Origin: Deltaproteobacteria bacterium
Lineage (GTDB): Bacteria > Desulfobacterota > Desulfobaccia > Desulfobaccales > 0-14-0-80-60-11
NCBI GenBank assembly: GCA_030018495.1
Contig: JASEFS010000028.1
Location: 1-48,283, forward strand
DNA: 48,283 nucleotides
Reading direction: 5' to 3'
The notes under the pieces are model-generated. The model made no database searches. It was not told the origin of the DNA and worked only from the letters and a program-made list of their open reading frames with translations. Positions 5,178-29,542 of the stretch are shown here, piece after piece. A program made the position numbers and the translations under genes. Each line of letters starts with the position of its first letter. Within the stretch, counting starts at the first letter, position 1.

Positions 5178-5909
5178 TCAGGGGTGTGCATGCTCCGGTT
5201 CTGAAGGAACCGAACCTTTTGTGTTGGGGATATGAAGGAGTTCAGAGACCGTAACCATTTCGTATCCCCTGGATTTCAGGGCCGGCAGAACGATTCTCAG
5301 GGCGTCCACCGTATTCTTATGGTCGCGCCGCCCCAGTTCGTCCCCGTCGTGAAAGATAATGATGGCGCCGTTGTGCACCCCCTTTAGAACGTTGGCGGCA
5401 ATCGCCACGTCGTCCAGACCGCGCCAATCTCCGGAATCCACGGACCACAGGACGAGGCGCTCGTGAAGGTGTCCCAAGTAATTTAAAAATCTCTGATTAT
5501 AATTACTGTACGGCGGCCGAAAAAGGTTGCGGTCCGGGGAGCCCAAACAATCAAGTTCCGCTTCGGTCCGCTCCAACTCCTGCTGCCAGGCGGCTTTGTC
5601 CACCTGCGGAAAGCGCTTATGGCTGAAACTGTGATTCTCCACTTCGTGGCCGTGCTTCAGAAGCCCACGAATTATCCGGGGGTATTGGAGCGCATGGCAC
5701 CCCAAAACAAAAAACGTGGCCTTGGCCTGGTACCGGCATAACAAAGAGCAAATTTCTTGGGTATAGGGGGATGGCCCGTCATCAAAAGTCAAGGCGATGC
5801 GTTTTTCCGCGGGGGAACCATGGACGATGAGCGCGGCCGGTTCCGCCCAAACCGGACTGAGGCGCAGCAGGCTAAGGAGAATCGCGGCAATAAGAGTTCC
5901 GGCCAGCAA
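5178..5909 (-). CDS. Secreted polysaccharide deacetylase (NodB family, CE4)
   Basis: CE4 enzymes remove N- or O-acetyl groups from chitin oligomers, peptidoglycan or exopolysaccharide. All five catalytic blocks are present in the 243 residues: TFDDGP (D43, D44), HSFSH (H93, H97), RPPY (131-134), DSGDW (158-162) and FHDG (H187). A signal peptide or N-terminal anchor covers residues 1-22, so it acts outside the cytoplasm. It lies 71 bp after the M24 peptidase gene and 118 bp before tatC on the same strand. The substrate is unknown; peptidoglycan or the exopolymer made by the 18-26 kb locus are both possible, and that link is inference. Confidence 0.9.
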   Translation of the reverse strand: MLAGTLIAAILLSLLRLSPVWAEPAALIVHGSPAEKRIALTFDDGPSPYTQEICSLLCRYQAKATFFVLGCHALQYPRIIRGLLKHGHEVENHSFSHKRFPQVDKAAWQQELERTEAELDCLGSPDRNLFRPPYSNYNQRFLNYLGHLHERLVLWSVDSGDWRGLDDVAIAANVLKGVHNGAIIIFHDGDELGRRDHKNTVDALRIVLPALKSRGYEMVTVSELLHIPNTKGSVPSEPEHAHP

Positions 5910-16900: not shown

Positions 16901-17794
16901 TTAGCTTGCCAGGTCTTTTAGCTGATAGACAATAGGGACTTCCACGGTGAGGGAGTTCTTGTGGAGTTCGGGAGGAAAAGGCGGGAAGGGCGCGGCCGCC
17001 AAAACGCACTGGGAGGCCTGTTCATCAAGAACGTCGACCCCCGAGGGTTTGACGATTTGCACTCCCTGACTCAGGGCGCCGGTATTGCTCAGGGTGAAGC
17101 GCAGGCGCACCACCCCTTCCAGGTGGCGGGCTCTGGCCAGCGGCGGGTACCGGCGATGGGCCAGGATGCGGGCCCGGACCAGACCGAGGTACCGGGTTTG
17201 GGCCGCGGCCAGACTCCCGGAGCCGCTCCCCGGATGGCCCTGGCCGCCTCTACCCTGACCCGCACCCAGACCAGACCCGGATGCGGATCCCGCTCCCGTG
17301 GAGGACATGCCGATCCCTGAGCCCGAAGCCGCGTCTGATTTGGTCGATGATGCAATAAAATCGGGTGTCGCTGTGCTTGCCGCGCCAGGGGATGTTGATT
17401 CTTTCGGCGCCGTCACCTGCGGCGCAGGCTCGGGAGCCAGGCGCCGGGGCTTTTGCCGGGCAGGCGGCACGCGTTTTTTGGCCTTGGTCATGACACGGGG
17501 CAACGGCGGAGATTTTTTAGCAGACTGAAACGCGGCAGGCGCCGCGGCTCCGCCTGCTGCTTTTCCCGAGACAATCGGGTCGCCGCCGGGCGCCGGTGCT
17601 ACCAGGTTCACTTCCAGGATGCCCGGGGAGTTGGGGAATTTATAAGAGCCTGCGGCCAGGACCAGGGCCACTATGGCTGCATGGAGGCCCAGAGAGAGCA
17701 GAAGACTCCCGGCTCCGAAAGGCCGTTCAAGATCGGGTCGCAGACTGGCCATGGCGAAAAAAAATCCCTGAGTCGCGTGACCCAAGGATTGCAC
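16901..17794 (-). CDS. TonB-family energy transducer under cobalamin riboswitch control
   Basis: The protein has an N-terminal membrane anchor (about residues 28-48, LLLSLGLHAAIVALVLAAG), a Pro/Lys/Ala-rich periplasmic spacer, a Gly/Ser-rich stretch (about 150-195) and a C-terminal TonB domain (about 200-297: RARILAHRRYPPLARARHLE, then GVVRLRFTL). TonB proteins pass proton-motive energy from ExbBD/TolQR to outer-membrane receptors. A cobalamin riboswitch lies 77 bp upstream on the same strand, so this transducer probably serves corrinoid uptake; no BtuB-type receptor is in the window. Start: GTG at 17794 with AGGGA about 12 nt upstream, or ATG at 17752; neither ribosome site is strong. Confidence 0.85.
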   Translation of the reverse strand: MQSLGHATQGFFFAMASLRPDLERPFGAGSLLLSLGLHAAIVALVLAAGSYKFPNSPGILEVNLVAPAPGGDPIVSGKAAGGAAAPAAFQSAKKSPPLPRVMTKAKKRVPPARQKPRRLAPEPAPQVTAPKESTSPGAASTATPDFIASSTKSDAASGSGIGMSSTGAGSASGSGLGAGQGRGGQGHPGSGSGSLAAAQTRYLGLVRARILAHRRYPPLARARHLEGVVRLRFTLSNTGALSQGVQIVKPSGVDVLDEQASQCVLAAAPFPPFPPELHKNSLTVEVPIVYQLKDLAS

Positions 17795-17870
17795 CCGTTT
17801 TCTTGATCCCTGGCGGAGTTTTCAACCCCTGGAACCCCCTCCGTACCGCGCGGCGGGCAATCCCTTTACA

Positions 17871-18020
17871 GGCAGGTCTTCTGACTCCCGGATCGCCCTA
17901 GTCCCTGCGCCTTCCCCCAGCCTGAGGCTGACGTGGCACGTTGCAGGTTTCGTCCCCGGTTACAGCGGCGGGACCGTGCCGGCTTCGCACCGGCTTCCCT
18001 TTTGAGCCTTGCGGCACCTG
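17871..18020 (-). ncRNA. Cobalamin (B12) riboswitch
   Basis: Read on the minus strand, the region starts with CAGGTGCC, then AAAAGGGAAGCCGGTGCG, a CGGTCCCGCCGCTGTAACCGG core, GGGGGAAGG and the 3' landmark GAGTCAGAAGACCTGCC. These are the conserved elements of the adenosylcobalamin-sensing riboswitch in the correct order. The first gene downstream is the TonB-family gene. No long intrinsic terminator was seen between them, so control by access to the ribosome site is more likely; that is inference. Confidence 0.93.
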
Positions 18021-18289
18021 TAAATTTGCTCATATTGTAGTGTCTCAGTTTGGGTTGTCAAGGCCTTAATGCAGAGGGCAGGGGGGAGGGTATTATGGGG
18101 ACTTGGGTTATTTGTAAATAATAAAATCCCTTTTAAAAAAGTTTAGGTTTTACTTTATCCAACCCAAAACCCAAAACCTGAAACCTAAACCCTGGCCCCT
18201 GACCACTGACCCCTGACCCCTGGTCCCTTGCTTGTCCCAGCGGATTAAGCTAAACTTCTTTTTAATTCAAGCAAATCGGGGAAAAAAAC
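18021..18289. repeat. Intergenic DNA with a ten-unit heptad tract
   Basis: From 18161 to 18230 the sequence can be cut into ten consecutive 7-mers without a gap: AACCCAA, AACCCAA, AACCTGA, AACCTAA, ACCCTGG, CCCCTGA, CCACTGA, CCCCTGA, CCCCTGG, TCCCTTG. The unit changes gradually along the tract. The remaining bases hold no recognised gene; the promoters of the epimerase gene and of the riboswitch transcript must lie here but were not identified with confidence. Confidence 0.7.
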
Positions 18290-19276
18290 ATGGCAGACTT
18301 GTCGGATTATACTTTCCTGGTCACCGGCAGCGCCGGGTTCATCGGGTTTCACGTCTCTCGGGCGCTTCTCGGGCAAGGCGCTGAAGTTATCGGGCTGGAC
18401 AACTACAATGATTATTATTCACCGGCCTTGAAGCGCGACCGGGACCGGGAGCTGCGGCGCCATGAAAAATTTGTGTCGATTGAGGCGGACCTGGCCGACC
18501 TGCCGGCTGTGGAGGCCCTTTTTGCCAATCACCGGCCCCAAAAAATCTGCCATCTGGCGGCTCAGGCCGGGGTGCGCTATTCCCTGATCAACCCCTTCGC
18601 GTACCAGAAAGCCAATCTGGAAGGATTCCTCAACCTCATTGAGTTGGCCAAACGGCATCAGGTGGAACGGTTCGTCTATGCCTCCAGTTCCAGCGTTTAC
18701 GGGGGTCTGACCGAACTGCCTTTTGCCGAAACCCAGCGCACCGACACGCCCATAAGCCTTTATGCCGCCACCAAGCGGGCCAACGAGCTGATCGCGCATG
18801 CTTACTCTCATCTGTTCGGTCTTCCCACCGTGGGCCTGCGCCTCTTCACCGTGTACGGCCCCTGGGGCAGACCGGACATGGCCATGTGGCTCTTTGCCGC
18901 GGCCATGCTCAAGGGGGAGGCCATCAAGGTGTTCAACTATGGGCAGATGGAAAGGGACTTCACCTATATCGACGACGCGGTCCAGGGCATACTGGGGGCT
19001 TTGACGGCTCCGGACCTGGACGCTTATGAGATTTTCAATATCGGCAATCACCGGACCGAACCGCTTCGCAAAGTAATTGCGCTGTTGGAGCAGGAGTTGG
19101 GAGTCAAGGCCAAACAGGAGCTTTTGCCCATGCAGCCCGGCGATGTGCCGGCTACCTTTGCCGACGTGGCCCGGGCCCGGGCCAAGTTGGGATTTAACCC
19201 CGCCATTCCCATTGAATCAGGGATTCCCCGATTTATTTCCTGGTTTAAAGAGTACCATAAACCAGAGCAAGATTAA
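18290..19276 (+). CDS. UDP-glucuronate 4-epimerase
   Basis: This short-chain dehydrogenase-type epimerase has the NAD-binding TGSAGFIG (residues 12-19), SSSSVYG, the catalytic YAATK and the RLFTVYGPWGRPDMA segment typical of UDP-glucuronate 4-epimerases (CapI/LspL group). It interconverts UDP-glucuronate and UDP-galacturonate in the cytoplasm. It is the first gene of a locus that continues with a GT2 synthase and an exporter, so UDP-galacturonate may be one substrate of the polymer. UDP-glucose 4-epimerase is less likely because of the GPWGRPDMA motif. Confidence 0.88.
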   Translation: MADLSDYTFLVTGSAGFIGFHVSRALLGQGAEVIGLDNYNDYYSPALKRDRDRELRRHEKFVSIEADLADLPAVEALFANHRPQKICHLAAQAGVRYSLINPFAYQKANLEGFLNLIELAKRHQVERFVYASSSSVYGGLTELPFAETQRTDTPISLYAATKRANELIAHAYSHLFGLPTVGLRLFTVYGPWGRPDMAMWLFAAAMLKGEAIKVFNYGQMERDFTYIDDAVQGILGALTAPDLDAYEIFNIGNHRTEPLRKVIALLEQELGVKAKQELLPMQPGDVPATFADVARARAKLGFNPAIPIESGIPRFISWFKEYHKPEQD

Positions 19277-19311
19277 CCTCCGTCCCCTCTGCTTCCAGAA
19301 ATCTTCAATTG

Positions 19312-19329
19312 AGCCTTGTAGGCTTTTTG
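19312..19329 (+). terminator. Weak intrinsic terminator after the epimerase gene
   Basis: AGCCT and AGGCT form a 5-bp stem with a 3-nt loop, followed directly by TTTTGT. It is small and could allow read-through into the GT2 gene. Confidence 0.35.
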
Positions 19330-19498
19330 TCACATTTGTCCCAATTATTCCCAATAAATAACGATTTCTTGTTGACAAAATAATTTTTTTATCTGAGAAA
19401 AAGAAAAATACCTCAGGATTTCTCTGATGCGTTTATAAGGGATGGCTTCCAGATGAGTTGTTAGGAGAAAGACGAGTTATTCCAGGGAGGGAATACAC

Positions 19499-19561
19499 GT
19501 GAAAACAACCGGTCTACTCCGGCACTGGTCTGGGAGCTTGGACTCGGGGGGTTCTCGATGA
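19499..19561 (+). CDS. Possible 20-residue leader peptide overlapping the GT2 start
   Basis: A GTG with an excellent ribosome site (GGGAGGG, 8 nt spacing) opens a 20-codon frame, VKTTGLLRHWSGSLDSGGSR with Met at the start. Its TGA overlaps the ATG of the glycosyltransferase gene by ATGA. The GT2 ATG itself has only a poor, G-rich site. The arrangement would couple translation of the synthase to the leader. No homologue is known to me, and it may be fortuitous. Confidence 0.35.
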   Translation: MKTTGLLRHWSGSLDSGGSR

Positions 19562-21138
19562 TGAGTGAGAACCCTCTTCTTTTTTTATGGGCTGACCGCC
19601 GCGGTCGGCTGCCCTATCGCCGCTATTTGGATTTGGAGGACCGCCCTCGCCGGCTGGCGGCCCAAAACTTTTCCCTTCTCACCCTACTTTGCGGAGGGAT
19701 TTATCTGGTCTGGCTCGGAAAGCTGGTCTGCCACACTTGCGGCTGGCAGGAAATCCTGTTTTTAGCCGCTGAAATCCTGGCCTTTACGCTCCTGCTTTTT
19801 TTGGCTTTTGATATCTGGCGGCTCCGTTTCCACCGGGCGGAAGGCCTGGCCATCGAAAATCCTTATCCGGTGGATATTTTTGTGACTTACTGCGGGGAAC
19901 CTTACGAGGTGCTCAAGACCACCTTGAAAAGTGTGAGCCGCATCGATTATCAGCCGGTCCAAGTGTATGTCTTGGATGACCATGGCTCTCCCCGGGTAGA
20001 AGCGCTGGCCCGGTCCCTGGGCTTTCAGTACCTCTCCCGACCGGCTGCCGGACTGCCTCGGCATGACAACAAAAGCGGCAATCTGAATTTCGCCTTGAAG
20101 CACAGCAAGGGCGACCTGATTCTGGTGCTGGACGCCGACCAGGTGCCGGAGCCGGATATTTTATCCCGCATGGCGGGGTTCTTCCGCTTGCCTAAGGTGG
20201 CGTACGTCCAATCCAAACAGGCCTTTTATCTGCCCAACGGCGATCCTTTCTACAACCGCGACGAAATTTTTTATGAGGTGGTTCAGTCCAGCAATGACCA
20301 CGCCAATGCCGTAATCTCCTGCGGCTCCGGGGTTGTCTATCGCCGCCGGGCCCTGGAGGAATTGGGCGGTTTTGTCACCTGGAATATCGTCGAGGACTTC
20401 ACCACCTCCTATGAACTGCTCAGCCGCGGCTGGAAGGGTATTTATTTCCCTTATGTGCTGTCGCGCGGCCTGGCGCCCAACACACTGGCCGGAGTTTACC
20501 GGCAGCGCTTCCAATGGTGTCTGGACACCATGCGCCTCTTTTTCTGGGACAATCCCTTGAAAAAGAAAGGGCTGAACTTGACGCAAAAAGTTCACCTTCT
20601 CATGATCATGGTTTGCTACCTGGTGAGCGGCCTGGTTTTTCCGGCGTTCTACACCATTCCCCTCCTTAGCTACTGGCAGGGATATTCCTTCGTGCAGGGC
20701 CAGGAACTGGACTACCTGGCGTTGCGCGGGGCTTACCTGCTGGCCACTATTTTGATGTTCCGCTACCTGTTCTGGGGTAAAAAGCCTGCCAAGCAGTTTA
20801 AAGTGTTGTGCGGCCTGTTTCCGGTTTTTGCCGGCGCCATCGCCGCGGCTTTGTTGTATCCCCCCGGCCGCAAACCGGCTTACCGCATCAACAACGGCTC
20901 GCCTTTTGCCCGGTCCTGGCATTGGTGGCACCTGGCGCCGCAGCTCTCCCTGGTGCTGCTTCACCTGATAATGCCTTTTCTGTCCCTGCACTTCGGCTGG
21001 GCTCCGCTTAAAATCGTGCTCTTCAACTCCTTGATTTCGGCCTTCGTCATCTGGGCGCTCGCTGATGTAATGCTGGCAGGGCTGAAAAAGCCCCGGTGGA
21101 CGCCCTCCATGGACCCCAGACAGGTATATGGTTCATAA
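19558..21138 (+). CDS. Cellulose-synthase-like family 2 glycosyltransferase
   Basis: This is a processive membrane GT2 (BcsA-like). Two membrane spans precede the catalytic domain (about residues 35-85), and several follow it (about 345-510). The catalytic series is visible: VLDDHG near 139, DAD near 191, VEDFTTS near 278, and Q-R-F-Q-W at 316-320. The last motif is normally QxxRW in BcsA-type synthases, so Arg is Gln here. The protein has 526 residues and no C-terminal PilZ domain, so it is unlikely to sense cyclic di-GMP directly as BcsA does. It would polymerise sugar and move the chain through the inner membrane. The next gene overlaps it by 11 bp. Polymer identity is unknown; cellulose is only one possibility given the neighbouring uronate epimerase. 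Confidence 0.88.
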   Translation: MMSENPLLFLWADRRGRLPYRRYLDLEDRPRRLAAQNFSLLTLLCGGIYLVWLGKLVCHTCGWQEILFLAAEILAFTLLLFLAFDIWRLRFHRAEGLAIENPYPVDIFVTYCGEPYEVLKTTLKSVSRIDYQPVQVYVLDDHGSPRVEALARSLGFQYLSRPAAGLPRHDNKSGNLNFALKHSKGDLILVLDADQVPEPDILSRMAGFFRLPKVAYVQSKQAFYLPNGDPFYNRDEIFYEVVQSSNDHANAVISCGSGVVYRRRALEELGGFVTWNIVEDFTTSYELLSRGWKGIYFPYVLSRGLAPNTLAGVYRQRFQWCLDTMRLFFWDNPLKKKGLNLTQKVHLLMIMVCYLVSGLVFPAFYTIPLLSYWQGYSFVQGQELDYLALRGAYLLATILMFRYLFWGKKPAKQFKVLCGLFPVFAGAIAAALLYPPGRKPAYRINNGSPFARSWHWWHLAPQLSLVLLHLIMPFLSLHFGWAPLKIVLFNSLISAFVIWALADVMLAGLKKPRWTPSMDPRQVYGS

Positions 21139-24100
21139 AGCCCGCTGGCTGGCAGCTCTGCTACCTATAATCTTCCTGGGCCTCATCTGCTGGACCGCGC
21201 TTAAGCATGACCCATATTTTTGGCGCTCCTCCCTAGCTCTCTACAAATTGGCGCAAGAGGCCGACAAGCGGGGCGAACTGCCCCAGGCCCTGCCCTTGGC
21301 GGAGAAGGCGTGGGCCAAGAACCCCCGCAACTCGGATGTCGGCACCTTCCTGGGCCGGCTTTATATCAAGGCCGGGCAGCAGGAAAAAGGACTGGAGGTC
21401 TTGCAGCAGGTGTGGTTGCGGGATGATCAGGCCGTCGCCGCCCTGCGGGGCCAGGCGCAAGTTCTGGTTGACCTGGGAAGGCGTCAGCAGGCCCTGGATT
21501 TTGTGGCGGACCTGTTGAAGAAGCAGCCTGACAACTGCGAGATTTTGGCGGTAGCCGCAGAGTTGGCCAGCCTAAGCGAAGAAGACCGGCCTCTGGCCGC
21601 GAGCTATTATCAGCGCCTTTACCAGCTTCGCCCCGACCCCCGGGTGCGACAAAAATTAATAGAATTGTTGACCGGTTTGAACCGCTTTAAAGAAGCCATA
21701 CCTCTTCAGGAAGAGGAGGTCTCCCAATCACCCGGAAGCCCGGAAGCCTTGCACCGCCTGGCTTTGCTGCACTACTGGCTGAGGGATTACCAGGCCGCCG
21801 GCCAGATTTACCAGCGCCTCTTGGAGAAATGTGCAGATAACCACGGCTTTCGGGAAGAGGCGGCCCAGGCGGCCGAGGCCGCCCAGAACCTGGATGAGGC
21901 GCTGAAGCACTACCTCTGGCTCTATGCCCGGCACCAGGGGAAAAAGGAGTATGCCCTGAAACTGGCCAGGCTCTGGGCCCGGAAAGGCAACCATGCCGAG
22001 GCCGTTGCGGTGCTAGCTCCCCTGATGCAGGGCAAGCCGGAAGCGGACGTGCAGCGCTGGTATGCCCTGGAGGTCCTGTTGACCGGGGACTTTGACAAAG
22101 CCTTAAAAACTTACCGCAGCGCCTGGGAAGCGGGCGACACCCACCAGGAAACCATCATCAATCTGGCGCGCCTCTACGGCCGCAGTCAGCAGTTTGCCAA
22201 GGCCGCAGGGTTTTGGGACGAAGCGCGGCGGCGGCAACTGGTGCAGGGGGAACTGCGCTGGGAGGCCGCCCTGGCCTACTCCTATGCCCACCGCTACGGC
22301 GAGGCGGTGGACATTCTCCAGCCTGTGGAGCGGGACAACCCCAAGCACCCCCGGATTCAGGCTTTCCTGGGGCAACTGCATTTCTATCAGAAGCATTGGG
22401 GCATAGCGGCGCAATATTTCCGGAAATATTTGGAAAAACACCCGGAGGACCTGGAAGTGCGGCGGCTGCTGGCCGAAGCCCTGGCCTTTAAGAAAGATGC
22501 CAGGGATGAAGCCATAGACGCTTACGGCGAATTAACCAAGCGCGTGGATGACGCCGCGGTGCGTCTGCGGAAGGCGGCGCTGCTATTAGAGGCGCAGCGG
22601 TGGGAGGAGGCCCGCCAGGAGTTGGCCCAGTGTCAGGCTCCGCAGGACCCACGGCTCCGAAGGGAACAGGCGCGCTTGTATCTCTGGCTGGGCGACCTGG
22701 AAGAGTCTCGAAAACACTATGAAGACTACCTGGCCAGGGAACCGGGGGACAGGGAGGCCCTTCTGGAGCAGGCCAGAGTTCTGACTTATCTGGGGCGCAG
22801 CCGGGAGGCCGGGGAGCTCTTGCGCCGCCTGCAAGGGGAGGCGGCCGGGCAGGGAACGGCTTCACCCGAAGCCCGGGCCGTTCTGGCAGCCTCCATTGAA
22901 GCTTCATTGGCCGGAAAAAACTGGCAGGAGGCAGCCCGGTGGGCGTTGAAGCTCTATAGCATACAGTTCCCTAATAAGGGGCGGCCCGCCAGGACCTGGC
23001 GGGAGGCCTGCGACTGGCATGAAGAAGCCCGCCTTGCGCGGCTCAATGGCAAGGCCGAACTCAAGGTGGTTCAGGTCGGCTTTCAGGACGAGCTTGAAAC
23101 CGAGGCTGAGGAATTCGCTTTACTGACGCTGGAGGAGAGGACCTGGATAGCCCGGGCGCTGTACCACGGCGAAGATGTTCGAAGCCTCAATCTGGCCGCC
23201 GACCTGCTGGTGGATAACCTGTGGAAAAACCGGTATCACCACCCTTCCCTTATTATCTTGGGGGCCATCCTGCCGCGTCTGCCCCGCTACGAAGATCTTT
23301 CCCGGCTGGTTTACCGCATCCCGGGCATCAAGGTCGGCAGTCCGGAATACGTGGCCTCCCTTGCCTTCTTTTCCAGCAACCTGGGCCGCCAGGGGGGCAA
23401 ACTGGACTACCTCCTGCATGTTCTGCGGGAATACCGCGAACATAAAAAGCCGAAGAATCCGGGTGAGCTTCTGGCCCTGGCCCATCTGGCCACTGAGGTG
23501 GGAGAGCGCCGCTTGGCCGAGGACTATTATCGGCGGGCTCTCAGACTCAAGCCGGATGATGAGCGCATTGCTCAACTCCTCTTGAACTGCCATATGTCGC
23601 AGAAGGAGTGGGACAAGGCCCTGGCCTCTTTGAACAAAAACGGCCTCAACGCCGACAACGCCATGGACGCGGCCCGCGTTTACCTGGTGCGGGGCCAGTA
23701 TGAGGGGGTCAAGGCCGCGGTGGCTGTGGTCCCGGAAAATCATCCGGAGCGCGATCAGGCCTTGCTGCTCCTGGCCCAGGTCTGCCGCCTGGAGCGCAAT
23801 TTTCCCGAAGCCCTCAAGACCTTGGAACAGCTTAAGGCGCGCATACCCGCGGAAACCTGGCTGATGGAAAAGGCCCAGGTTCTGGAAGCCATGGGGGATA
23901 AAACCGCGGCTGGAGTTTATAGCGAGGTGATCAGTTATCGGCCTGATTCGCAGACCGCCAGGATTGCCGAGGCGCGGCGGGCGCGGTCGACTGGCAACTG
24001 GGCCGGGGCCTATAAGGCTTATGCGCGGGCCCTGGAACAGGCCCCACAAGACATTCAGCTCTTAAACGAATTGGAATACGTGCGCCAGCAAATGCGGCCC

Positions 24101-25282
24101 CAGGTGGCTTCCCGTGGCTTTGCCAATCCGCAGGGGGAACGGCGCCCGGAAGAAGCCGCCCGTCCCTGGCAATTTTCCCGGCCAGACCGGGAGTTTTTGG
24201 GTCGGATGCCGGGCGGCGGAGGCGTCCCTCTGCTTCAGCCGGAAACCATGTATTTTGATGACCACAACGGTCTTTACGGGCTTATTGTGCGCGCCTCCGG
24301 CAGCTTCAGGCTGACCAGGGCGATCCCCATGCAAATGGCCGTGGAATACCGGGAATACAACCAAAATGCCCGCTCTCTGGAACAGGGGCCGGTAGACTTG
24401 GGGCTGGTTCAGGTTTACAACCAGACAGCCCATGACGAAAGCCGGCTGCGACGCCTGGAAGTCTCCCTGGGAGCCGGTCCCGTGGCGCTGGCCGACCGCC
24501 TGCGCCTGAGCGGCGAAATTATCTGGCGGCGCTACTGGAAGCGAGTGGATCGCACTATCACCCAGAAGGGGCAGCAATTCTTCCCCTTTCCCGACCCCGC
24601 TTTCCTGGATGTCACCGTCAATGAAAAAAGCACTCTAAAAGAACAGCGAGACCGCCTTTTCGGAGCCTTGCAGCTTGATTTTCCCATCACGCTCAAAACC
24701 GACGGCAGCCTCAAATACAGCCGCCGGGATATTTTCGATCAGGATGCCGCGCTTTTCCCCCGCTTATACCAAAGCGTTTCGAACCTGGGCGACGCCAAGC
24801 TGGTCACCTACCATCAGGTGGAGTTCAGCTTCAACCATCAATTCCGCCCCGGCTTGGAATGGCGCGGCAATGCGGGAGGCGCTTTTTTCTCGGACGACAA
24901 CCGGCGTTTTACTCTTTATCAGGGCCTCTACTGGCGGGCCGTTAACCGGCCGCGCCTGCAGGTGGGGATAACGCCTCACTACTATTTGGCGGCCTACCGG
25001 AAGGAGCAGCCCGCCTACTTCAGTCCCCACGCTTACCACGCCCTGGGGCTGGGATTTGATTTCAGCCGCCAGATTTTTCGCCTGCCCACGCTGATCCTTC
25101 AGGGAACGGCGCAGGCCGTAGGCCAGCACGGGGATTGGGGGCCGGCTCTGCACGGCCTGGCCGCCTTGGAATGGGAAATGGTGCACAATTTTTTCATTGA
25201 TCCCCATGTTTTTTATTTCAGGGAGTGGGTCGATGACTATGACATTCTGACTTTCGGCCTCTCCATGCGCTATACCTTCTGA
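21128..25282 (+). CDS. TPR scaffold fused to an outer-membrane beta-barrel exporter (BcsC/PelB-like)
   Basis: The 1384-residue protein has one N-terminal membrane span (about 7-26), then roughly 1000 residues of tetratricopeptide repeats, then a C-terminal region (about 1040-1384) of alternating amphipathic strands that ends in aromatic Phe (MRYTF), the usual beta-barrel signature. BcsC, PgaA and PelB have this order; PelB also keeps an inner-membrane anchor, so the overall form is closest to PelB. It probably guides the nascent polysaccharide through the periplasm and out of the cell. The 11-bp overlap with the GT2 gene supports a joint function. Repeats were recognised by pattern only (for example WARKGNHAEAVAVLAPL). 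Confidence 0.85.
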   Translation: MVHKARWLAALLPIIFLGLICWTALKHDPYFWRSSLALYKLAQEADKRGELPQALPLAEKAWAKNPRNSDVGTFLGRLYIKAGQQEKGLEVLQQVWLRDDQAVAALRGQAQVLVDLGRRQQALDFVADLLKKQPDNCEILAVAAELASLSEEDRPLAASYYQRLYQLRPDPRVRQKLIELLTGLNRFKEAIPLQEEEVSQSPGSPEALHRLALLHYWLRDYQAAGQIYQRLLEKCADNHGFREEAAQAAEAAQNLDEALKHYLWLYARHQGKKEYALKLARLWARKGNHAEAVAVLAPLMQGKPEADVQRWYALEVLLTGDFDKALKTYRSAWEAGDTHQETIINLARLYGRSQQFAKAAGFWDEARRRQLVQGELRWEAALAYSYAHRYGEAVDILQPVERDNPKHPRIQAFLGQLHFYQKHWGIAAQYFRKYLEKHPEDLEVRRLLAEALAFKKDARDEAIDAYGELTKRVDDAAVRLRKAALLLEAQRWEEARQELAQCQAPQDPRLRREQARLYLWLGDLEESRKHYEDYLAREPGDREALLEQARVLTYLGRSREAGELLRRLQGEAAGQGTASPEARAVLAASIEASLAGKNWQEAARWALKLYSIQFPNKGRPARTWREACDWHEEARLARLNGKAELKVVQVGFQDELETEAEEFALLTLEERTWIARALYHGEDVRSLNLAADLLVDNLWKNRYHHPSLIILGAILPRLPRYEDLSRLVYRIPGIKVGSPEYVASLAFFSSNLGRQGGKLDYLLHVLREYREHKKPKNPGELLALAHLATEVGERRLAEDYYRRALRLKPDDERIAQLLLNCHMSQKEWDKALASLNKNGLNADNAMDAARVYLVRGQYEGVKAAVAVVPENHPERDQALLLLAQVCRLERNFPEALKTLEQLKARIPAETWLMEKAQVLEAMGDKTAAGVYSEVISYRPDSQTARIAEARRARSTGNWAGAYKAYARALEQAPQDIQLLNELEYVRQQMRPQVASRGFANPQGERRPEEAARPWQFSRPDREFLGRMPGGGGVPLLQPETMYFDDHNGLYGLIVRASGSFRLTRAIPMQMAVEYREYNQNARSLEQGPVDLGLVQVYNQTAHDESRLRRLEVSLGAGPVALADRLRLSGEIIWRRYWKRVDRTITQKGQQFFPFPDPAFLDVTVNEKSTLKEQRDRLFGALQLDFPITLKTDGSLKYSRRDIFDQDAALFPRLYQSVSNLGDAKLVTYHQVEFSFNHQFRPGLEWRGNAGGAFFSDDNRRFTLYQGLYWRAVNRPRLQVGITPHYYLAAYRKEQPAYFSPHAYHALGLGFDFSRQIFRLPTLILQGTAQAVGQHGDWGPALHGLAALEWEMVHNFFIDPHVFYFREWVDDYDILTFGLSMRYTF

Positions 25283-25340
25283 CCAAACTCGGTTCAAAAG
25301 GCTTTTAAAAGTTGCACCTTTTTTGAAAGGGAGCAGCATC

Positions 25341-26612
25341 ATGACGGGGCGAAGTTCTTCCTGCCTGCGATGCCTAAGCGAACGACGTTCTCTGCTGCTG
25401 TTCTCCTTCGTGAGCCTCCTTTTTGTCGGCGGCTGCGCCGAAGTGACCCGACCTGCGCCCACCGCGGCGGAGATTGAGGAGGTCCAACTCGAAGCCAGCC
25501 GGCGTTACCCTTTCAAAAATTGGGCCGTGGAGCGGGTGTCGAGGGTCTTCCTCAAAGAACTGATGGTGCTGCCGCAGATTCACGGCCGCACGTACCCGTT
25601 CCTGGGCTTCAACTGGTGGGTGACGGAAGCCGACAAAGTGGTCATCGACAATATCTGGAAACCCTCGCCCGCGGCTGACGCCGATCTCAGGCCGGGTGAT
25701 ATCCTGCTGGCCGTGAACAACTGGCCTATTTACCCCTGGGTGGTGGAGTGGGACAGGAAAACCAGGCTGACCCGGGATGTGATGCGGGATATGTTTTGGG
25801 TGAACCGCATGGGGCGCTATGGCAAGAAGTATCCCACCGATGGTTTGCTGGTGTTGGCCCTGCCGGGCGAAATCCTGGTCTCCTTGATGCTCGACCTCAA
25901 GCATATCGCTATGGAGAGCCGGGGCCGTTATCTTACGGGTCCGGTTGATCTTCTGGTGCAAAGAGGCGAGGAAAAATTTCCAGTGACTCTCTACCCCCAG
26001 CACCTGCCAGCCGATTACGCCATCCTGGTGGATTCTCAGGATCGGAGCCTGAATGCCTATGCCGCCCCTGGATGTCTCATCCTGTCCCGCCGGCTGGTGT
26101 CGTTTTGCCTGAATGACGACGAACTGGCCATAGTCATCGGCCATGAACTGGCTCATCACGCCTTCGGCCACCTGGTGCGCGGGGCCGGCCAGCGCCATCT
26201 GGGGGGTGTGGCCGGGCGCATGTGGAAGTTGGTGGGCGGCTTCGCCACCCAGACGCTGAATGTGCTCATGGATTGGCGCCGGGCTATCTGGATTGACGAG
26301 CGGGTGCCTTCGGTGGCCGAGGACGCCATTGTAAGCGCTTTTTCCCGGGAAGATGAGCGGGAAGCGGATATATACGGCGCGTGGTACGCCTACCAAGCGG
26401 GATATGACCTGGACAAAGGTTTGGCCGTTTGGGAGCGAATGGCCGGCATCGGGCATGATCCGTTTGAACGCACCTATTTTCTGGATTCCCACCCCACCCC
26501 TTTGGAGCGGTTGGCCCGCTTGAGAAAAGTCGCCGACTACTTCAAGAACGGACGGGCCGCGGAAGTGTTTTTACAAGCGCCCACTTTGAAAGACAAACAG
26601 CCCCGCAGTTAA
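25341..26612 (+). CDS. M48 family metalloprotease lipoprotein with a PDZ-like segment
   Basis: Zinc-protease motif HELAHHAFGH (H268, E269, H272) and a downstream READIYGAWYAYQAGYD segment mark family M48. A lipobox-like FVGGC puts the lipidated Cys at residue 32, so the protein is probably periplasmic and membrane-anchored. A PDZ-like stretch (ADADLRPGDILLAVNN, about 110-125) precedes the catalytic domain. The ATG at 25341 has AAAGGGAG about 8 nt upstream and is preferred over an upstream start at 25323. Position behind the exporter gene suggests a quality-control or processing role in polysaccharide export, as BepA has for outer-membrane proteins; that is inference. Confidence 0.88.
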   Translation: MTGRSSSCLRCLSERRSLLLFSFVSLLFVGGCAEVTRPAPTAAEIEEVQLEASRRYPFKNWAVERVSRVFLKELMVLPQIHGRTYPFLGFNWWVTEADKVVIDNIWKPSPAADADLRPGDILLAVNNWPIYPWVVEWDRKTRLTRDVMRDMFWVNRMGRYGKKYPTDGLLVLALPGEILVSLMLDLKHIAMESRGRYLTGPVDLLVQRGEEKFPVTLYPQHLPADYAILVDSQDRSLNAYAAPGCLILSRRLVSFCLNDDELAIVIGHELAHHAFGHLVRGAGQRHLGGVAGRMWKLVGGFATQTLNVLMDWRRAIWIDERVPSVAEDAIVSAFSREDEREADIYGAWYAYQAGYDLDKGLAVWERMAGIGHDPFERTYFLDSHPTPLERLARLRKVADYFKNGRAAEVFLQAPTLKDKQPRS

Positions 26613-26647
26613 ACTCATTCAACGGAATTCCGGCAAGGGAGTCCATC

Positions 26648-26821
26648 ATGGCACGGCTTATTCAGGAAATCTGTCTCTCAGCGGCTTCATGGCAAACCCT
26701 CCTGGCCGTACTGATTCCGGCGGCGTATCTCTGCGCAAAATACCTTAGAAAACGGGAAGAAAAATTTTATGAAGCCATATATCGCCGAGAGCGGATCACT
26801 CGGAGACTGATGGAAGGTTGA
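26648..26821 (+). CDS. 57-residue single-span membrane protein
   Basis: A 57-codon frame starts at an ATG with AAGGGAG 6-7 nt upstream, 36 bp after the M48 gene and on the same strand. The product has one hydrophobic span (about residues 16-31, QTLLAVLIPAAYLCAK) followed by a highly charged tail rich in Arg, Lys and Glu. Function is unknown. Spacing and ribosome site suggest it is the last gene of the exopolysaccharide run. I do not recognise a family. Confidence 0.55.
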   Translation: MARLIQEICLSAASWQTLLAVLIPAAYLCAKYLRKREEKFYEAIYRRERITRRLMEG

Positions 26822-26977: not shown

Positions 26978-27898
26978 TCAGGAAACGGGCAGGATGATGG
27001 TGACCCAGGTCTGCCCGGCGCCGCTCACTGCCTGCAAACAGCCGCCGTAAGGGGCAAGCAAGCGCTTGGCCATATAAAGGCCAAGACCGGCCCGAGGGTT
27101 GACGGCGGTGCTTTTCGTGGTAAAGAACGGCTCAAAGATGCGGTCAGCCAAGGCGGCAGGAATGCCGCAGCCCGTGTCCCCGATGCGAATAAGACGCCGG
27201 TTCCCCTCCAGCTCCGTTTCCACTGTCAAGCGGCGCAGTTCAACATTTTCCATGGCCTCCAGGGCGTTTTCCACCACGTTGCGAAAACTCTGGCTGAAAT
27301 CCAGGTAATGCCCGTAAATAGGGGGCAGGGCGGCCCCGAAACATAATCGCGTTTGAACCTGATGCTTGAAAAACAAATCATTCTGAAAAAGGGCCAATTC
27401 ATCCTGGTAAAGCCGGTTGAGATCAATATATTGCGGGTCCTCCTGGTCTTCATGAGCGGCCTGGCGGAGGAGATCTCGGGTAATAATCTGCAGGTTCTCA
27501 AGCTCCTGGCTCATTTGTTTGAGCCTTTGCTGACGCTGGGCCAGCAGCATGCCCAACTTTTCCGCCGCGGGCGAGGCCAATTCTGCCAAATACCTTTGCT
27601 CCTCCGAAGCCTTCTGCGCCAATATCTCCAATTGAAAAGACAATACCTGCAGGGGCGCGTTCAGGTTGTGAATGATGCCGTGACAGCGCCGGCCCGCGGC
27701 CGAATGGCGAAAATAGCGCACCAATTCCCTAAGGGCTCTCTCCAGGAGTCCTTCCGGGCCGGCCGACGACGGTGACAAAACCGCGCTTGGCGGCGACTGC
27801 CTGGAAGGACCGCCGGCGCAGTTCGAGGACGGCCTTGTTTTACCACGATCAGCGGCTGGTGCAGGTAATGTTTCAGGCAAAATCTCACCCCCGGCCAT
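26978..27898 (-). CDS. Soluble sensor histidine kinase
   Basis: The C-terminal 230 residues form a kinase core: H-box GIIHNLNAPLQ with the presumed phospho-acceptor H77, N-box NVVENALEAM, G1 IGDTGCGIP, F-box FEPFFTTK and G2 AGLGLYMAK. No membrane span and no recognised sensor domain are present; the first 60 residues are Pro/Ser-rich and probably disordered. The H-box lacks the classic HELRTPL form and is closer to the HNLNNPL style of NtrB-like kinases. It is 302 bp downstream of the HD-GYP gene on the same strand; the REC-SHOCT protein further upstream is the obvious candidate partner. Confidence 0.87.
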   Translation of the reverse strand: MAGGEILPETLPAPAADRGKTRPSSNCAGGPSRQSPPSAVLSPSSAGPEGLLERALRELVRYFRHSAAGRRCHGIIHNLNAPLQVLSFQLEILAQKASEEQRYLAELASPAAEKLGMLLAQRQQRLKQMSQELENLQIITRDLLRQAAHEDQEDPQYIDLNRLYQDELALFQNDLFFKHQVQTRLCFGAALPPIYGHYLDFSQSFRNVVENALEAMENVELRRLTVETELEGNRRLIRIGDTGCGIPAALADRIFEPFFTTKSTAVNPRAGLGLYMAKRLLAPYGGCLQAVSGAGQTWVTIILPVS

Positions 27899-28200
27899 GC
27901 CTGTAAGGCTCGTTTATTGCTTTATTGCTTGTTTAGCAGAAACCATACCAGCCGCCGGACGGAATTTTTTCAAGAAGTAACGGTCTTTAGGCGGCCAAGT
28001 ATGGGGCTAAGGCGGGCGAACGGATGAAAGTATAGACTTTGCCATAGAAACATTGTGCCCGTGCGGGGAGGGCTCGGGAATGCTACTTGATGTTAACTTT
28101 CAATTCCATGGATTGAGTTGGGACTTGGGGTCGGCGGCACGGCTTATGGCCCTGGCCCCCGCTAACGGCCTAAATTATAAGGGTGCCTGGCAATGATTAG
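27899..28200. other. Gene-free 302 bp between kinase and HD-GYP genes
   Basis: No gene, clear promoter or convincing hairpin was found. The stretch upstream of the kinase (near 27978-27998) holds a GC-rich segment that partly resembles one upstream of the REC-SHOCT gene, but the match is too short to call. Confidence 0.4.
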
Positions 28201-28866
28201 CTAAATTTGCGAGAGGCCGGCGCTGATAAACTCGAGAAATTCCCGGGTCAGATCAGGATCAAACTGCCTCCCCGATTGCAAAGCGATTTCCTTAACGGCG
28301 GCGCGGGGAGTAAACCGACCCCGATAAGGCCGGTCGGTAACCAGCGCGTCATAAACGTCGGCCAGCGCGGTGAGGCGAGCCAGGAAAGGGATTTCTTCCC
28401 CTGAAAGTCCAAGGGGATACCCCTGTCCATCCCAGCGCTCATGATGGCAGAGAATTATTTCCTTTTCTCTCGCAGTTAGGCCAAGGGGCTCAATGATTTT
28501 ATAGCCGATCAGGGGATGGGCGTGGATGTGCTCCCTTTCCTCAGGGGTCAGAGGTCCGGGCTTGAGAAGAATGGCATCGCTGATGCCGATTTTGCCGATA
28601 TCGTGCAAATAAACCGCAGTCCTCAGCGCCAGCAAGTCATCGGCAGGCAGACACAAAAAACGGGCAAAACGGACGGCCAAGTCTGTTACTCGGGTTGAGT
28701 GCCGCCCGCTATAAGGGTCCCGGGCAGACAGCGTGCGCAGCAGAGCGCTGATGGAATCCGTAAGCTGCGGGGATGCCGTCCGCCTCGCGGCGACCGGCTC
28801 GAAAGAGCCGCCGGCCACCACGTCAGGCCTAAAGCGATTGGAAGCGATAGCTTTGCCGATATTCAA
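28201..28866 (-). CDS. HD-GYP domain protein, probable cyclic-di-GMP phosphodiesterase
   Basis: The domain occupies almost the whole 221 residues: HSTRVTDLAVRFA helix, LHDIGKIG (H88, D89), HPLIGYKII, HHERWDGQGYP (GYP at 149-151) and ALADVYDALVTDRPYR. All catalytic positions of the active class look present. Such enzymes hydrolyse cyclic di-GMP to pGpG or GMP in the cytoplasm. There is no REC domain, but the gene begins 25 bp after a stand-alone REC protein ends, so the pair may work like the usual REC-HD-GYP fusion. Confidence 0.9.
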   Translation of the reverse strand: MNIGKAIASNRFRPDVVAGGSFEPVAARRTASPQLTDSISALLRTLSARDPYSGRHSTRVTDLAVRFARFLCLPADDLLALRTAVYLHDIGKIGISDAILLKPGPLTPEEREHIHAHPLIGYKIIEPLGLTAREKEIILCHHERWDGQGYPLGLSGEEIPFLARLTALADVYDALVTDRPYRGRFTPRAAVKEIALQSGRQFDPDLTREFLEFISAGLSQI

Positions 28867-28891
28867 GACAATGCCTTTTGGGCGGCGCCGG

Positions 28892-29542
28892 TCATATGCA
28901 CAGGCGCTGTTTTAAAGTTTGATATTCTCCTTCAGTGATCAGACTCTCCTGATAAAGGTGGCGCAGCCGCAGCAAATCAGCCTGACATTGATCCCTCCGG
29001 TTAGAGACCGCATTCAGCCTGGGAAATGGAAAGGATGGAGAAAAGCTCCTGGCATCGGTCATCGGCTGCTCTCCGCCAACCTCATTTTGCTTTGCAGGGG
29101 CAAGGTCTGTCAGCTTGGCCGTCAAGACATCCAGCTTTTGAAGAAGTTCCTGATTTTGCCGGTGGAGCACCAGGAGTCTGGCGGCGTTGGCTACGGCGAT
29201 ATCTATTTCTTGAAGTTTGAAAGGCTTGCGCAGATAGTCGTAGGCTCCCTCCCGGATCGCCTGCATGGCGCTGTCAAGGGAGGCGTAGCCGGTCATGACC
29301 ACCACCAGGGTGGCTTTGTCTTTCTGCTTGGCGGCCCTGAGCACGGCCATACCGTCGGCTTCCGGCAATACCAAGTCGGTGATCACCAGGGAATAATCTC
29401 CCTTCAGCAAGAGATCCTGAGCCTCCCTTCCATTTATCGCCAAGTCAACATGGTGGCCCTTATCGCGCAGGAAGCCGGCCAAAGCCTCTCCCAGATTGAG
29501 GTCATCTTCTGCAATTAGAATACTAAGTACGGTCCCGTTCAT
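28892..29542 (-). CDS. Response regulator with C-terminal SHOCT-like domain
   Basis: Residues 5-125 form a receiver domain: acidic pocket EDD (12-14), phospho-acceptor D56 in VITDLVLP, Thr in VVMTGYAS and Lys in YLRKPFK. A coiled-coil segment (about 128-150) follows. The last 40 residues (QADLLRLRHLYQESLITEGE and on) match the SHOCT pattern, a short helical domain usually found at the ends of membrane or secreted proteins. No DNA-binding domain is present, so output is probably through protein contact. It is first in a trio with the HD-GYP and kinase genes. Confidence 0.85.
   Translation of the reverse strand: MNGTVLSILIAEDDLNLGEALAGFLRDKGHHVDLAINGREAQDLLLKGDYSLVITDLVLPEADGMAVLRAAKQKDKATLVVVMTGYASLDSAMQAIREGAYDYLRKPFKLQEIDIAVANAARLLVLHRQNQELLQKLDVLTAKLTDLAPAKQNEVGGEQPMTDARSFSPSFPFPRLNAVSNRRDQCQADLLRLRHLYQESLITEGEYQTLKQRLCI

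Follow-up and report, generated by a model that had tools for sequence, protein, structure and literature searches.

The window analysed here is a 48,283-nucleotide contig of a 3.46-Mb deltaproteobacterial genome whose nearest named relatives, in a scan of named genomes, are Desulfobacca and Desulfobaccales MAGs. It contains a group of genes for a putative polysaccharide secretion system (Table 1). All five open reading frames listed by a first-pass annotation of the DNA were recovered at the same coordinates, and the genes for the GT2 and the TPR-barrel exporter do overlap by exactly 11 bp. The same overlap is present in about half of the relatives, with overlaps of 8–17 bp in several more, and in the remainder the two genes abut or are separated by a short gap. 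The four large open reading frames are real genes as judged by conservation. For the M48 protease, listed from a TTG at 25323, the likely start is the ATG at 25341. The 57-residue membrane protein is also a real open reading frame but is restricted to one clade: it has no Pfam or NCBIfam assignment, and its only equivalents (40–52 residues, with a single TM helix and an arginine-rich C-terminal tail, encoded 3' of the M48 gene) are in four close relatives. A convergent histidine kinase gene follows the M48 gene in 12 relatives. This kinase gene is often accompanied by HD-GYP and response regulator genes.

Table 1. Features of the locus, with positions in the window.
Feature	Position	Strand	Basis
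SDR-family nucleotide-sugar epimerase, likely UDP-uronate 4-epimerase class; neighbour, outside the core	18290..19276	+	Pfam/NCBIfam, synteny
Candidate CsrA/RsmE-type hairpin TATTCC-AGGGAG-GGAATA, ANGGAG hexaloop	19478..19495	+	Shuffles, covariation, ANGGAN consensus
Candidate short leader ORF MKTTGLLRHWSGSLDSGGSR, stop overlaps GT2 start	19499..19561	+	Comparable short ORFs in relatives
GT2 polysaccharide synthase, 526 aa, CelA/BcsA-like catalytic core, without PilZ	19558..21138	+	TIGR03030, BcsA structures, motifs
Export protein, 1384 aa: N-terminal anchor, TPR solenoid, C-terminal barrel	21128..25282	+	Pfam, conservation
Apparently uncleaved N-terminal TM segment of exporter, then DPxFWRS motif	21146..21202	+	Cleavage-site scan, FW motif
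16-stranded beta-barrel of exporter	24230..25279	+	AlphaFold2 model, structural matches
M48 metalloprotease lipoprotein with PDZ domain	25341..26612	+	Pfam, motif conservation, fold
57-aa single-TM protein, clade-restricted	26648..26821	+	Equivalents in L031-L034

We searched for the GT2 in 59 relatives and compared wide regions around the matches, using a synteny set made up of the window and 24 Desulfobaccales relatives that belong to two families of that order. The exporter gene directly follows the GT2 gene in all 25 loci, and the M48 gene comes next in each of the 24 loci that reach that far, a few genes of the unit being interrupted by stops or frameshifts in draft assemblies. The GT2, TPR-barrel and M48 genes form a real gene unit, and the synteny search proposed in the earlier annotation finds the three conserved together within the order. 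We rejected the M48 protease as a trait of the entire GT2 family, since the loci examined outside the order gave no M48 profile match.

The GT2 matches the cellulose synthase model TIGR03030 over residues 66–405 with an E-value of 8e-59, although its score of 199 bits stays below the cut-off (699), and matches BcsA structures at 3e-37 (5ej1). The catalytic GT2 Asp/Glu-Asp motifs are kept in nineteen members. A PilZ domain is absent, as originally annotated (no PilZ match in Pfam), and alignment to E. coli BcsA shows that the gating-loop motif FxVTxK has become YRxNN, a loss that fits the absence of PilZ. Cellulose synthases carry a QxxRW motif. Here it is replaced by QRxQW, which is invariant in the 19 Desulfobaccales members and near-invariant across phyla and could signal another donor or product.

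The exporter has a mean column identity of 57% across 17 members, and its TPRs are recognized by Pfam. Modelled alone with AlphaFold2, the C-terminal domain has 16 strands (pLDDT 79, pTM 0.73). Among known structures it is matched best by PgaA, BcsC and PelB, with Z-scores of 21.8–22.5, the next unrelated barrel scoring 18.8; PgaA (4y25, Z 22.5) is tied with BcsC (6tzk, Z 22.1) and PelB. The N-terminus consists of a conserved hydrophobic helix followed by a DPxFWRS motif. A simple scan for an A/V-x-A cleavage site found none in the Desulfobaccales exporters except in one locus (L048, VAA), the sequence of another (L043) being uninformative owing to a wrong start. The same scan reports VEA in the E. 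coli BcsC control, VIA in L089 and VVA in L093. Exporters or synthases of Nitrospirota, Solidesulfovibrio, Gemmatimonadota and Acidobacteria share the FW motif, and on an Acidobacteria contig (L092) the TM helix, FWRS motif and TPRs form an internal segment fused after the last GT2 helix, in an open reading frame truncated by the contig end. Judged from these sequences, the exporter appears to be fixed in the inner membrane by an uncleaved N-terminal TM helix, although this helix could instead be a slowly cleaved signal. The barrel model, the N-terminus and the L092 fusion support the earlier prediction that exporter, TPR scaffold and inner-membrane anchor are combined in one protein.

The gene set as first described is likely to have lacked a key partner, a lipoprotein GH8 glucanase whose gene lies elsewhere in the genome. 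In a draw of 395 genomes of the phylum, each of the 18 Desulfobaccales genomes carries a single copy, never beside the GT2 gene; the copy in the window's own genome lies at G000:C30:106538-107524. A maximum-likelihood tree places the GH8s of Desulfobaccales together with GT2-TPR-linked copies, opposite E. coli BcsZ and BcsZ-like sequences, across a branch with 100/99 support. Inspection of their N-termini identifies the Desulfobaccales and GT2-TPR-linked enzymes as lipoproteins, most, though not all, of which were flagged by a lipoprotein regular expression. Over the 395 genomes, 23 have both GT2 and GH8, 4 GT2 only, 13 GH8 only and 355 neither, giving an odds ratio of 157. Common descent inflates this value, as does the inclusion of canonical Bcs operons, whose BcsA falls within the GT2 threshold. 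BcsZ is thought to clear or trim the cellulose chain. Since GH8 enzymes also cut chitosan, xylan and mixed-linkage glucan, the GH8 partner does not fix the sugar.

In the E. coli Bcs system the synthase is linked to the BcsC TPRs by a semicircle of BcsB (PMC11379886). BcsB (PF03170) was detected in none of ten genomes, the window's own included, with E. coli positive as a control, in a search that a remote homologue of this divergent protein may escape. The gene unit, its domain composition and the barrel fold support the earlier proposal of a compact synthase-dependent export system. We consider it probable that this is a cellulose-like, synthase-dependent secretion system without BcsB or PilZ, in which the exporter is self-anchored, GH8 trims the product and M48 provides surveillance. 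The GT2 would use a UDP-sugar to build a chain that most likely resembles a beta-1,4-glucan and would pass it across the inner membrane, and the exporter's own N-terminal TM helix would hold this 1384-residue partner beside the synthase. The TPR solenoid would then lead the chain outwards through the periplasm and into the 16-stranded outer-membrane barrel, the direct anchor filling the bridging role that BcsB has between BcsA and the BcsC TPRs. The unlinked GH8 lipoprotein may clear or trim the chain, as proposed for BcsZ, while the M48-PDZ lipoprotein may monitor assembly or jamming of the exporter.

It is possible, if rather unlikely, that the product of the GT2 is instead another polymer of neutral or amino sugars (PNAG-like, chitosan-like or a mixed-linkage glucan) that GH8 either cleaves or leaves untouched. 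The deviation of QRxQW from QxxRW and the broad specificity of the GH8 family are consistent with such a product, as is the sole Pfam barrel match of the exporter, a weak one below the cut-off to PgaA_barrel (PF21197, 1.6e-4); the Pfam BcsC barrel is not matched. These observations have to be set against the NCBIfam comparison, in which the GT2 matches the PgaC model at 1e-14, far more weakly than the cellulose synthase models. In addition, neither a PgaB deacetylase nor PgaD is found among the products of the unit by Pfam or NCBIfam, and the gene for a polysaccharide deacetylase at 5178–5909 is 12 kb away.

The first-pass annotation had also proposed that the polymer contains uronate. On this reading the epimerase would supply the GT2 with UDP-GalA or a similar sugar. 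In its favour, the epimerase gene lies directly upstream of the GT2 gene, in the same orientation, at 14 of the 23 testable loci, and UDP-sugar dehydrogenases are present in the genomes. However, the epimerase gene is absent from the other 9 loci, absence being counted only where the sequence extends at least about 3 kb upstream (two further loci were undecidable). Where present, it is separated from the GT2 gene by 199–589 bp, unlike the overlapping genes of the GT2-exporter unit. Five genomes without it at the locus have unlinked copies at 76–78% identity. Three genomes of genus g10 have homologues at only 54–55%, which in two of them (G022 and G024) adjoin a UDP-sugar dehydrogenase gene, and no match at E 1e-60 is found in G006 (99% complete), G017 or G027 (98% complete). 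Because the copies in genomes lacking one at the locus are unlinked, diverged or undetected, the epimerase looks like a general sugar-nucleotide enzyme outside the core. The uronate proposal therefore fails on synteny, the ground that the annotation itself had named for its refutation, and we rejected supply by the neighbouring epimerase for this reason. The GH8 link points toward a neutral glucan; overall, we regard a uronate-containing polymer as very unlikely. The label UDP-glucuronate 4-epimerase is plausible as to family but is not established as to identity, no NCBIfam equivalog reaching its cut-off and its best match among solved structures (5u4q, 1e-100) having been deposited as a dTDP-glucose 4,6-dehydratase.

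The M48 protein has an FVGGC lipobox with an invariant Cys32, a PF01435 match at 8e-22 and PDZ matches in Pfam, and its HExxH motif and distal glutamate are invariant among relatives. The model of the whole protein is poor (pLDDT 59), and we used domain models only: that of the protease domain matches BepA at Z 16.2, and PDZ domains are matched at Z 9.8. The earlier description of a BepA-like protease holds for the catalytic domain fold but not for the rest of the protein, which has PDZ where BepA has TPRs (Pfam finds none here) and falls far under the NCBIfam BepA cut-off (36 against 570 bits). A profile of the full-length PDZ-M48 protein at E < 1e-80 finds members in this order only; elsewhere in the phylum the protease half alone is matched, at 1e-33 or weaker. 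The lipoprotein is probably a lineage-specific addition that watches exporter assembly or jamming, a role that fits a PDZ protease encoded beside a TPR-barrel. That it instead serves the pathway as a dedicated processing enzyme, replacing GH8 in the slot where outgroups have a GH8 lipoprotein, would agree with its restriction to the order but is most improbable given that M48 enzymes are peptidases, that GH8 is retained in every genome of the order in the draw, and that the protein combines a BepA-like protease domain with a PDZ.

The first-pass annotation stated that no known system has this set of components, which is too strong as far as the architecture is concerned. PelB is a single TPR-barrel protein with a proposed uncleaved inner-membrane anchor (PMC12141448), and NfrB/NfrA is a two-gene GT2 and TPR-barrel system (PMC8669472). 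We found no published combination of a GT2, an anchored TPR-barrel and GH8 or M48, in a literature search that reached few subscription papers. The likeness to Bcs lies in the CelA/BcsA-type GT2, the TPRs with a 16-stranded outer-membrane channel (at fold level) and, less clearly, a GH8 glucanase. The differences are that the GT2 has no PilZ and has lost FxVTxK and QxxRW, that BcsB is undetected and the exporter apparently anchored where the Bcs exporter is signal-cleaved, and that GH8 is an unlinked lipoprotein outside the BcsZ clade, with M48 at the locus. As in PelB, a TM helix is followed by a long TPR scaffold and a 16-strand barrel, the anchor here being a sequence-based prediction, but the GT2 is BcsA-like and the barrel similarity is at fold level only; Pfam identifies no other Pel genes among the products of the unit. 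NfrB/NfrA (NGR) shares the minimal pairing of a GT2 with a TPR-barrel. NfrB carries an MshEN c-di-GMP domain, whereas the GT2 at this locus stops after the TM region and has no Pfam match to MshEN, and the GH8 and M48 partners are a further difference. Compared with BepA, with which it shares the M48 catalytic fold, the locus protease is a lipoprotein with a PDZ and without its own TPR tail. A BcsB-less relative with an anchored or fused exporter would reveal the minimal purpose of the bridge and be a simpler envelope-spanning complex to examine structurally.

Outside the order, a scan of named genomes identified the GT2 at 42–47% identity in Solidesulfovibrio aerotolerans (L089; the culturable strain DSM 16695 has the GT2/TPR/barrel/GH8 set) and in Nitrospirota (L090 and L091). 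In all three, the genes downstream of the GT2 encode TPRs with an N-terminal TM helix, a barrel and then a GH8 lipoprotein in place of M48. In Solidesulfovibrio the TM-bearing TPR protein and the barrel are encoded by separate genes, and the barrel has a typical signal peptide. A further cluster (L057) has the order GT2, PilZ (as a separate protein), TPR, TPR and GH8. In one Omnitrophota genome (L096) a single 1029-residue open reading frame joins the GT2 to a peptidoglycan-binding domain (PG_binding_1) and a beta-rich C-terminus that may be barrel-like, judging by its sequence. Comparison of barrel profiles gave a clear match for Nitrospirota L091 (hhalign probability 96) and weak ones for L089 (13) and L096 (11). 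We rejected the idea of a widespread Omnitrophota fusion, the GT2 being found at E 1e-80 in only 1 of 285 genomes.

We tentatively suggest that these systems belong to a cross-phylum class of beta-glucan secretion machines in which a TM-anchored element tied to the synthase replaces BcsB as the periplasmic bridge, an idea that falls somewhat short of being probable. This element would take the form of a separate anchored TPR protein in Solidesulfovibrio, an anchored TPR-barrel in Desulfobaccales and Nitrospirota, a GT2-TPR fusion in Acidobacteria, and one protein extending from GT2 to a barrel-like part in the single Omnitrophota genome. If so, the 1029-residue Omnitrophota protein would constitute a one-protein route from the cytoplasm to the cell surface. 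Our reading of the Desulfobaccales locus predicts cellulose-like polymers in uncultured relatives of sulfate reducers and in Nitrospirota.

Hairpins with GGA in a loop of 5–7 nt precede the GT2 gene in 16 of 26 loci, against 2.2 in mononucleotide shuffles, and are not all one homologous element. Eight loci with an ANGGA(G/A) hexaloop, picked for showing the hairpin, display compensatory changes in 3 of 8 pairs and are 95% paired; the inner four pairs are invariant and the outer three vary on both sides. In seven of the eight, the window included, the hairpin is 62–87 nt 5' of the GT2 start. The ANGGAN hexaloop is a known CsrA/RsmE recognition element (PMC7652899), and the hairpin is a candidate CsrA-type site, which would provide a point of translational control where PilZ control is absent. 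An Rfam search of the leader gave no credible riboswitch. In the same seven loci the hairpin loop could act as the Shine-Dalgarno sequence of a candidate short leader ORF; comparable short ORFs, unrelated in sequence, are found in several relatives.

The hairpin preceding the GT2 synthase gene, a candidate CsrA/RsmE-type element, has an ANGGAG loop and shows covariation. It covers the ribosome site of a candidate leader ORF, 20 codons in length, whose stop overlaps the start of GT2; the same arrangement is also present in relatives. Farther upstream, a cobalamin riboswitch lies 5' of a TonB-family gene, and CCCTGAC forms a short tandem repeat between this riboswitch and the epimerase gene. Genes for a sensor-less histidine kinase, an HD-GYP protein (HHxxxDGxGYP motif complete) and a response regulator are convergent to the exopolysaccharide unit, next to which their conservation is partial.

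Elsewhere, one GT2 cluster (L057) also encodes a stand-alone PilZ protein, two TPR proteins and a GH8 lipoprotein; c-di-GMP sensing is here placed on its own gene, via the separate PilZ protein. Genus g10 of the Desulfobaccales has an additional GT2 paralogue (42% identity) with no adjoining exporter gene and, at L055, YRVTVK at the gating-loop position. In one Omnitrophota contig, GT2, a PG_binding_1 domain and a beta-rich, barrel-like C-terminal part form a single 1029-aa ORF downstream of response regulator genes, and in one Acidobacteria contig an anchored TPR segment is joined to the GT2 C-terminus in an ORF interrupted by the contig end.

Coordinates of features in the window and at related loci
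Feature	Location	Strand
TonB-family gene	window 16901-17794	-
Cobalamin riboswitch	window 17854-18036	-
CCCTGAC repeat	window 18190-18228	
Hairpin/leader ORF	window 19478-19561	
Signalling genes	window 26978-29542	-
GT2-PilZ cluster	L057:1792-9475	
g10 paralogue	L055:818-2482	
g10 paralogue	L056:8805-10013	
Omnitrophota fusion (JADFYF010000018)	L096:8904-11993	
Acidobacteria fusion (JABFRY010000288)	L092:9902-12337
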